The notes beneath the pieces are model-generated. The model worked only from the letters and a program-made list of their open reading frames with translations, ran no database searches and was not told the DNA's origin. A DNA stretch of 64,000 nt from Gemmatimonadales bacterium (lineage in GTDB: Bacteria; Gemmatimonadota; Gemmatimonadetes; Gemmatimonadales; GWC2-71-9): positions 1 through 64,000 of the forward strand of contig JAHBVU010000003.1 in assembly GCA_019637315.1 (NCBI GenBank), in the 5' to 3' direction. Both the position numbers and the translations under genes were made by a program. Positions 25,439 to 28,407 of this stretch are shown piece after piece. Position 1 is the first letter of the stretch, and each line of letters starts with the position of its first letter.

Positions 25439-26053
25439 GTGTACTCCGACCGAATTCATCACGCGCTCGCCTTCGCGGCCAAACACCATCCCGAACGCAT
25501 CTCCCGCTACGACGGGCAGTCCTGCCTGATTCGCGCCTCGAGCGTTGCCGTCATCCTGGCGCGTTTCGGCGCCGACGAGTCCACCATCGTCGCCGGGATT
25601 CTGAAGCACCTTGCTGACGCGGTGCCCATCACCAGAACACCCTCGCTGGCCCAGGAAATCGACCGGAAATTCGGTGCGCCCGTGGCCGCGATGGTGGCGG
25701 CCTCAACCGAGCCCCGATTCGATGTCCTCGGGCGGGAACGGACCTGGAAGACCTGCCGTCTCGAGTACCTCGCGCAGATTGCCGAGGCCACACCCCTGGC
25801 GGTCGATATCTGCGTAGCGGAGGAACTGCATCGGATCGGCGCCGCGCTGGTCTCCATCCGGCGTCTGGGCATCGAGTATCACGAGACGGTCGGGCAAGAC
25901 AACATCGGCAGCCCCAAGTCCGCCGAAACCCTCTGGTGGCTCGGCATTCTGGGCGACACGCTGGAGCGGCACCAGACCTGGAACCACCCGGTCATGATGG
26001 AGGCGTTCCGCAACTCGGCCGACGAGTTGAGGCAGCGCCTCAGGGCGGGCTAG
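25439..26053 (+). CDS. HD-domain-like (RelA/SpoT-type) protein with degenerate metal site
   Basis: This 204-residue protein has the helical order of the SpoT/MESH1 HD hydrolase: RIHHALAFAAKHHPERISRYDG near the N-terminus, then SVAVILARFGADESTIVAGILKHLADAV. In active enzymes that second segment carries the metal-binding HD pair, as in LLHDVVEDT. Here the position reads KHLAD, so the HD pair is not conserved. Later, ATPLAVDICVAEELHRIG sits where the second Asp motif is expected. It begins with GTG 3 bp after queE. A regulatory or altered-substrate role is possible, and ppGpp hydrolysis is doubtful. Confidence 0.7.
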   Translation: MYSDRIHHALAFAAKHHPERISRYDGQSCLIRASSVAVILARFGADESTIVAGILKHLADAVPITRTPSLAQEIDRKFGAPVAAMVAASTEPRFDVLGRERTWKTCRLEYLAQIAEATPLAVDICVAEELHRIGAALVSIRRLGIEYHETVGQDNIGSPKSAETLWWLGILGDTLERHQTWNHPVMMEAFRNSADELRQRLRAG

Positions 26054-26056
26054 ACC

Positions 26057-26944
26057 TCAGTGTGACGCGGCAGCGGCAGGTGGCCCGTCGTTCGCCGCCA
26101 CGACGCCTTCGACGGTCGGCGGCTTCGCTCGGACAGCCTCAGCCTCACGCAGCGCCCTGAGATAGCCACGGGCCAGCCCGGTGTTGACCCGGACGGCCGC
26201 CTCGCCCATCCCCTTGAAGCGATAGGTGTCGGTGATGGCCGGCAAACGGTCGGCCGCGTTCTGCTCGGAAACCGTTTGGCCGGCGGGAACATACCGGTTG
26301 GGCGGAATGGTGACGCCGATGACCCGGGCCCCGGGCTCGATCACGACCCCAGCGCTGATCCGGGACTGGAATACCAGTGCCTGCATGCCCACATAGACGT
26401 TGTCATCGAGTTGGGCCGGGCCGTGGACCAGCGCCTGCGGGGCAAGCGAGACTCGCTTGCCGATGTAGACGGAGTATTCCCGGGTTCCGACCTTGAAGGT
26501 TCGCCCGGGAATCGGCTTGCCCTCATCCACAGTCTCGAGCGCCTGAACGACCGCACCGTCCTGGATGTTGCTACCCTCCCCGACGGCAATCGGCTGACCG
26601 GCGGCATCGCCACGGACCGATGCCAGCGGAGCAACGAAGACATCCTTGCCCAGCTGGACATACCCGACCACGCTCGCGAGCGGGTCGACGAATGCGGACG
26701 GGTCGAGCGACGGTGCCATTGCAGCCGGGATGTCCGGTGTGACCGCTCCAGGTCGGCCGGCAACGAAGCCGCGCGCCGGCATGGTCCCGCCCAGGGCAAC
26801 GCGCATGCTGTCGACCGCGCGCCGGATCACTACCAGGTCATCCCCGGCCCGACGGAGCTCACGCCCCGACATCGCAATCACGCCCACCAGAACCGCGCCT
26901 CCAAAGGCTGCGGCTCCGGTGGCCAGCAGTTTCACAACGAACAT
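26057..26944 (-). CDS. Membrane-anchored gamma-carbonic-anhydrase homologue lacking two zinc ligands
   Basis: This 295-residue protein starts with a signal or anchor helix (LLATGAAAFGGAVLVGVIAM). It then has a left-handed beta-helix similar to the Cam-type gamma-carbonic anhydrase: SAFVDPLASVVGYVQLGKDV, SVRGDAAGQPIAVGEGSNIQ, VSLAPQALVHGPAQLDDNVY and VIGVTIPPNRYVPAG. In Cam, three His bind the metal. Here the first aligns with Gln (GAVVQALET) and the second with Pro (SLAPQ), and only the third (LVHGPA) remains. The start at 26944 has AAGGAG six bases upstream. Catalysis as a carbonic anhydrase is therefore unlikely. The alignment is from memory of the family. Confidence 0.8.
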   Translation of the reverse strand: MFVVKLLATGAAAFGGAVLVGVIAMSGRELRRAGDDLVVIRRAVDSMRVALGGTMPARGFVAGRPGAVTPDIPAAMAPSLDPSAFVDPLASVVGYVQLGKDVFVAPLASVRGDAAGQPIAVGEGSNIQDGAVVQALETVDEGKPIPGRTFKVGTREYSVYIGKRVSLAPQALVHGPAQLDDNVYVGMQALVFQSRISAGVVIEPGARVIGVTIPPNRYVPAGQTVSEQNAADRLPAITDTYRFKGMGEAAVRVNTGLARGYLRALREAEAVRAKPPTVEGVVAANDGPPAAAASH

Positions 26945-27075
26945 CCCGAGCTCCTTGGCACAAAGCCTGCCAAACCAGAATACGTCCAAGTATCGGCAAC
27001 CGGGTCGGAAGGTTAAGCCCGGCAGGCATTTGCACCATATTTCGCCGCCACGGGCACGCCCCTATTATTCGAGCT

Positions 27076-28407
27076 ATGGACGGATCCATCTCCGCGATTT
27101 CCGAGCTTCCCAGCGCCTTCTCGATCGCCTGCCGCCAGGCCAGGTCGGACGGGGAATTGCTGGAGCGATGCCGGCGGATCCTCGCGGAGCGGTTGGCATC
27201 TGACCGGATCTGGCTTTCGGTTACTACCGCGAGCGAAACCCGGTGGTTTGGCCCGGCCGGCCCGGAGGCCGAGCGGGTTCAAGTGGCGCACTATGCTGCT
27301 GGGGACACCGCCATCGCGATCTCGACGGAAAACGGGCTGGTGGAACAGCTGCGCCCGCTGGCCTACCAGGTCGGTTTCGGCCTTTCGGTCGTCCTCGACC
27401 TCCGAAGCGTGCTGGTCGACCGCCAGCTGGCCCTCGACGATGCGGTGTTCCAGCTGCGCGCCCTCCGCCAGGTGGCCCGGTTGCTTTCCTCTGCCCATTC
27501 CACCGGTGAAAGTGAAACCCTGGTCCTCGACTTCATGGCCGAGGTCTTCTTTGCCTGGTGGGCATGCCTCTACCGACCAAGCGGGGCCGCGTTCGTGCCG
27601 ATGTCGATCCGATCGCTCGATCGGGATCGGGTGCCTGAAAGCATCGGTCGGGAAGAACTCGAACTGGCGGTACCGCTCGGGTCCGGCATTGCCGATCCTC
27701 GCGAGGTGGGGCTGGCCCAGCTGATCCCCGCCGGCACCGAGATGCTGATTCCGCTGGACGCCGGTGGCGAGCGAGTTGCCGTGCTGCTGCTGGGCCCTCG
27801 GCTCAACGGGCTGGCGTACGGCAAAGCCGAGCGCGACCTCGCAGCGACACTGGCGTTTGCCGGCGCGATTGCACTCAAGAACGCCGAGCTCGTGGAACGG
27901 CTCCAGAACGCGGCGACGACCGATCAGCTGACCGGCCTGTTCAACCGCCGCGCTCTGGCTGAGCGGCTCGAGGCCGAGATCTCACGCAGCGTGCGTCACC
28001 AGATCCGCACCACCATCGCTATGATCGACCTGGATCGGTTCAAGGTCATCAACGACACCCTGGGGCACGCCGCGGGCGATCGGTACCTCGTGCTGATCAG
28101 TCAGCTGCTCCGCCGCCATATCAGAACCCTGGACGTGGTGGGACGTTTGGGTGGCGACGAGTTTCTCGTCATCCTCCCGATGACCAATCCGTCCGAAGCC
28201 CAGGGGTTCGTCGACCGCGTCATCGCCGCCTTCGGCGAAATGGTGACCGAGTATCCCGAGTTCGGCATTGGCTCATTGTCGATCGGGATCGCCGAGGCAC
28301 CGCGCGACGGTCTGACACCGGCCGCGGTGATGGCCGCCGCCGACGCCGCGTTGTACAAGGCGAAGAAATACGGCGGCCACGCCGTCGTCACCACCCGCGA
28401 CGAGTGA
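27076..28407 (+). CDS. GGDEF diguanylate cyclase with GAF-like sensory region
   Basis: The 443-residue protein is soluble. Residues 1-270 form two alpha/beta segments that look GAF-like but are not clear matches. Residues 275-443 are the cyclase: TTDQLTGLFNRRALAERL, AMIDLDRFKVINDTLGHAAG, then the active loop GRLGGDEFLVIL and a C-terminal ADAALYKAKKYGG. GGDEF is intact. No RxxD inhibitory site precedes it at the usual five-residue spacing, so feedback inhibition at that site is not expected. A TATTAT ends 8 bp before the ATG, hinting at a very short leader. The stop overlaps the next gene (GTGA). Confidence 0.92.
   Translation: MDGSISAISELPSAFSIACRQARSDGELLERCRRILAERLASDRIWLSVTTASETRWFGPAGPEAERVQVAHYAAGDTAIAISTENGLVEQLRPLAYQVGFGLSVVLDLRSVLVDRQLALDDAVFQLRALRQVARLLSSAHSTGESETLVLDFMAEVFFAWWACLYRPSGAAFVPMSIRSLDRDRVPESIGREELELAVPLGSGIADPREVGLAQLIPAGTEMLIPLDAGGERVAVLLLGPRLNGLAYGKAERDLAATLAFAGAIALKNAELVERLQNAATTDQLTGLFNRRALAERLEAEISRSVRHQIRTTIAMIDLDRFKVINDTLGHAAGDRYLVLISQLLRRHIRTLDVVGRLGGDEFLVILPMTNPSEAQGFVDRVIAAFGEMVTEYPEFGIGSLSIGIAEAPRDGLTPAAVMAAADAALYKAKKYGGHAVVTTRDE

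Follow-up and report, generated by a model that had tools for sequence, protein, structure and literature searches.

In the window analysed here, the whole stretch of 64,000 nucleotides from a Gemmatimonadales bacterium, we found a gene whose product is, by fold and ancestry, a gamma-carbonic anhydrase of the Cam subclass, and in which two of the three metal-binding histidines have been replaced. On balance, it appears to be a dead Cam caught in a recent, lineage-specific loss, under relaxed constraint and early in its decay. The gene and its product are laid out as follows.

26057 to 26944, minus strand: cam-like open reading frame of 295 amino acids, with its ATG at 26944 and its stop ending at 26057
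26951 to 26956, minus strand: Shine-Dalgarno-like AAGGAG (CCAAGGAGCTCGGGATG), rated good, upstream of the ATG at 26944
Residues 6-25 (approximate): hydrophobic N-terminal anchor
Residues 35-53 (approximate): linker helix
Residues 67-225 (approximate): left-handed beta-helix
Residues 246-272 (approximate): C-terminal helix
C-terminus: tail rich in Ala and Pro

The initial annotation, made from the sequence alone, had described a Cam-like beta-helix anchored in the membrane, and both descriptions hold. In a phmmer search of solved structures, residues 64-262 matched the Cam of Methanosarcina thermophila (structures including 1thj and 1qrm) at E about 1e-60, with about 50% identity, the alignment running over the whole beta-helix and the C-terminal helix with only two single-residue gaps. 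Foldseek, searched with an AlphaFold model of moderate confidence (mean pLDDT 56, which informs on the fold and not on ligand geometry), also gave Cam as the best PDB match (probability 1.00, TM 0.82 by target length). The next nearest solved family is CcmM of the beta-carboxysomes (matched in fold at about 33-41% identity), whose RbcS-like repeats the window protein does not have. Pfam recognises hexapeptide repeats only. The NCBIfam carb_anhyd model NF040597 scores the protein at 235 bits, below its cut-off of 380; the copies of other species of the genus (congeners) reach 247-276 bits, likewise below it, so that this cut-off does not separate dead from live enzymes. The hydrophobic N-terminal segment is common to the window protein and all congeners. 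At the other end, the window protein carries a shorter, Ala/Pro-rich tail (window 26060-26150), and the congeners a Lys/Glu-rich tail of some 30-45 amino acids.

Four features of the active site, with the Cam residues to which they correspond, are relevant here.

26600 to 26605, minus strand: Ala114-Ala115 (GCC GCC), a single Glu (E62) in Cam and all congeners
26543 to 26545, minus strand: Gln134 (codon CAG; CAC or CAT in congeners), at Cam H81, ligand lost
26438 to 26440, minus strand: Pro169 (codon CCG; CAC or CAT in congeners), at Cam H117, ligand lost
26423 to 26425, minus strand: His174 (codon CAC), at Cam H122, the sole metal ligand kept

Because the alignment with Cam has only two single-residue gaps, the register of the ligands is unambiguous. 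It places a His at just one of the three metal positions, in agreement with what had been read from the sequence at first sight. The Cam segment RSD-EGM reads RGDAAGQ in the window protein, E62 having given way to Ala with one residue inserted. The window protein still shares with M. thermophila Cam R59 (R111), D61 (D113), N73 (N126), Q75 (Q128) and N202 (N254) in addition to H122, and differs from it in H81Q, H117P, E62A, the inserted residue and the membrane anchor. We compared it with 25 reference sequences of the Cam family, from Gemmatimonadota, Gastranaerophilales, Bacillota and Methanosarcina, which have 49 invariant columns. H81, H117 and E62 are invariant in all 25, so the changes in the window protein exceed chance variation within the family. 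The protein retains 43 of the 49 invariant residues, the six changed being E62A, H81Q, H117P, F132Y, N195G and V198A. Three of these changes are at active-site columns, of which we counted nine (P about 0.07), and two hit the three ligands (P about 0.04), which is suggestive rather than strong, the active-site columns being our own choice.

A cam gene is present in 6 of the 102 genomes of the window's family, five of them in the window's genus and one (G006) in another. It is thus confined to 2 of the 41 genera, which argues that it is dispensable in the family. The copies in the relatives were located by an alignment-based scan of contigs, a single-protein scan having found nothing. As far as the contigs reach, the order of the locus is the same in all of them (speA, an epimerase, queC, queE, HD, cam, GGDEF, kinase), and the genes on either side of cam serve as markers of synteny.

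25439 to 26053, plus strand: HD_4-domain protein, convergent neighbour of cam
27076 to 28407, plus strand: GGDEF protein, divergent neighbour of cam

Because the locus is syntenic in all, we consider the cam copies to be orthologues and the losses to be private and independent. The initial annotation had asked whether relatives share the Gln and the Pro, and they do not: three congeners (G001, G002 and G005) and G006 have the complete set of His, and E62, R59, D61, Q75 and N202 as well. In a further congener, G003, the copy (L005:1495-2418) has lost a different ligand, H122Y, with H81 and H117 retained; it also has Q118R, and its start position reads ATA, against ATG in the others. One genus thus offers, at one syntenic locus, a natural series of intact copies, a copy with one ligand lost and a copy with two lost, from which the succession of steps by which a gamma-carbonic anhydrase dies can be read. 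The congener G004 was considered as a case of cam loss and set aside as uninformative, since its HD neighbour is also missing and its genome is 84% complete. The GGDEF gene beside cam in G003 (L010:9147-9600) retains roughly its first 75 residues, which run in frame straight into the last 20, so that its catalytic core looks to have been deleted.

The loss of ligands goes together with faster change. On a species tree built from the neighbouring genes (support values 68-88), the cam branch of the window is 3.8 times the congener mean, and the values for seven neighbouring genes are 0.8-2.0. Among columns at which the five remaining cam proteins agree, the window protein has changed 24 of 122 and G003 11 of 109, compared with 2 of 100, 6 of 104 and 2 of 100 in the intact congeners; the two ligand-losing lineages are therefore the two fastest-changing ones. 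An unconstrained cam tree sets the window protein outside its genus (support 90), as it might if the vertical orthologue had been replaced at its locus by an older paralogue or by an allele acquired through transfer. The species topology is nevertheless not rejected for cam (AU p = 0.059), a long-branch effect is expected, and the locus and the anchor are the same as those of the congeners, which makes such a replacement very improbable. Still less probable is an artefact, whether of sequencing, of assembly or of the binning of the contig. The genome is a draft (3.9 Mb in 36 contigs, 95% complete), but two ligands, E62 and some twenty more conserved positions differ with the frame still open, the neighbours resemble those of the congeners and are syntenic with them, and contamination is 0.06%.

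The site of gamma-carbonic anhydrases lies at the subunit interface, where one chain contributes H81 and H122 and the adjacent chain H117 (PMC5226100). A search of the window genome with its own protein gave a single Cam match, the window gene itself, and revealed no second gamma-carbonic anhydrase in the 95% of the genome that is covered; two other weak hexapeptide matches, from a search with NF050158, were considered as compensating paralogues and rejected, as they read by eye as acetyltransferase-like. Since the sites span subunit interfaces and there is only one such gene, a homotrimer of the window protein would have one His per site. In complex I of Vigna, zinc is absent from interfaces that lack His, among them one where Gln stands in its place (PMC7447434). 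The window protein is therefore very probably metal-free and catalytically inactive. A protein that is still active, or still binds metal through Gln134, His174 and another residue or water, could draw on the remaining H122, R59, D61, Q75 and N202; we regard it as highly unlikely, given a single His per interface, the additional loss of E62 and the absence of zinc where Gln or other residues replace His in Vigna (PMC7447434). The idea of a pseudo-enzyme, also put forward in the initial annotation, is upheld to this extent, with at most one His per homotrimer interface and no other gamma-carbonic anhydrase to complete it. Its further suggestion of a scaffold or a binding protein, if taken as a settled role like that of the complex I subunits, is unsupported, because the congeners keep three His and the loss is recent, in one lineage with accelerated change. 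The partner subunits of a complex I-type heterotrimer are likewise missing from a genome with a single gamma-carbonic anhydrase gene.

The history that we favour would begin with a vertically inherited, membrane-anchored Cam-subclass enzyme of this Gemmatimonadota genus. The window species would then have lost the metal site (H81Q, H117P, E62A) and hence, presumably, CO2 hydration, with a protein that would still fold and is probably still translated. The enzyme would have become dispensable in this lineage and, with constraint relaxed, the gene would now be early in decay. This scheme builds directly on the observed ligand loss, intact orthologues, faster change and open frame. Against it stand the intact frame, the Shine-Dalgarno sequence, the 43 conserved family-invariant residues and the rejection of omega = 1 on the window's cam branch (branch codon model, 2 delta lnL = 74). 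By the usual marks of a pseudogene, a broken frame or a lost start, the gene is none: its frame is open and its ATG and Shine-Dalgarno sequence are in place. The branch omega itself (0.06, with 0.05 as background) comes from saturated synonymous sites, and for this reason we rely on the rejection of omega = 1 alone. As the branch also spans time before the loss, this rejection implies selection over most of the branch only.

The same observations are compatible with a plausible, though less probable, alternative, in which a non-catalytic trimeric beta-helix has been maintained at the membrane, where it would act as a scaffold or a binding protein. The open frame with its ribosome-binding site, the codon model and the retention of fold residues and of the pocket residues R59, D61, Q75 and N202 all agree with it, the raised rate could reflect adaptation to a new role, and a ligand-free exported Cam relative in Latescibacterota (L031, see below) demonstrates that such a protein can persist as an open frame. 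However, the Gln and the Pro occur in no relative, the neighbours of the window gene are the same as those of intact congeners, with no role-specific partner seen among them, and a sister species (G003) is on its way to losing its copy by a different route. Because the replacements are unshared, the rate is raised and the sister species is losing its copy differently, we favour decay over a maintained scaffold; the recency of the loss and the parallel, different loss also mean that decay fits at least as well as a stable new role. It seems unlikely that, in a genus whose remaining members for the most part retain the enzyme, the Cam of one species has become a homotrimeric pseudo-enzyme that stands alone and has taken on a new role at the membrane surface, in a genome that has dropped every recognisable carbonic anhydrase.

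A beta-carbonic anhydrase (PF00484) is present in all five congeners, in genomic contexts that differ among them, and was undetected in the window genome at its 95% completeness, which weakens the idea that cam decayed through simple redundancy. No alpha-carbonic anhydrase was found in any of the seven genomes searched. With the alpha, beta and gamma classes searched and some 5% of the genome missing, it is likely that the window genome is without any carbonic anhydrase. If this is so, one might speculate that the species lives where CO2 is plentiful. An annotation of the window gene as a carbonic anhydrase on the basis of homology would in any case mislead.

Dead homologues of gamma-carbonic anhydrase are already known, from plant complex I and some CcmM, and the window gene is a further case, of the Cam subclass, stand-alone and bacterial; our search of the literature on pseudo-enzyme gamma-carbonic anhydrases and on bacteria lacking carbonic anhydrase found nothing. 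The plant complex I subunits have also had ligand His replaced (Gln135 in CA1 of V. radiata; CA2L without two His) (PMC7447434), but belong to the CamH subclass and form a heterotrimer with one intact interface, whereas the window gene is single and its loss private to one species. Within the CcmM gamma-carbonic anhydrase domain, some members have no activity and are nevertheless believed to act still as scaffolds (PMC5226100).

Within the Cam family itself, a relative from a Latescibacterota genome of Lake Baikal (L031:5932-6561; 209 amino acids, with a signal-like N-terminus) has H81V, H117A and H122Y, with D61 and N202 also changed, and is thus a fully ligand-free Cam fold. Like the window protein, it is an exported or anchored Cam-like fold with its ligands lost, in a separate lineage. 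A ligand-free clade around it was considered and rejected: it is the only Cam-like copy found among 64 genomes of its phylum, with no close relative found in them. A Bacillota relative (L069, G773:C55:91138-91674) combines H117P with an early stop codon that cuts it off ahead of the C-terminal helix, and this pairing of the same H117P with a broken copy speaks for decay. With these two cases, besides the window gene and G003, ligand loss has occurred several times in the Cam family.
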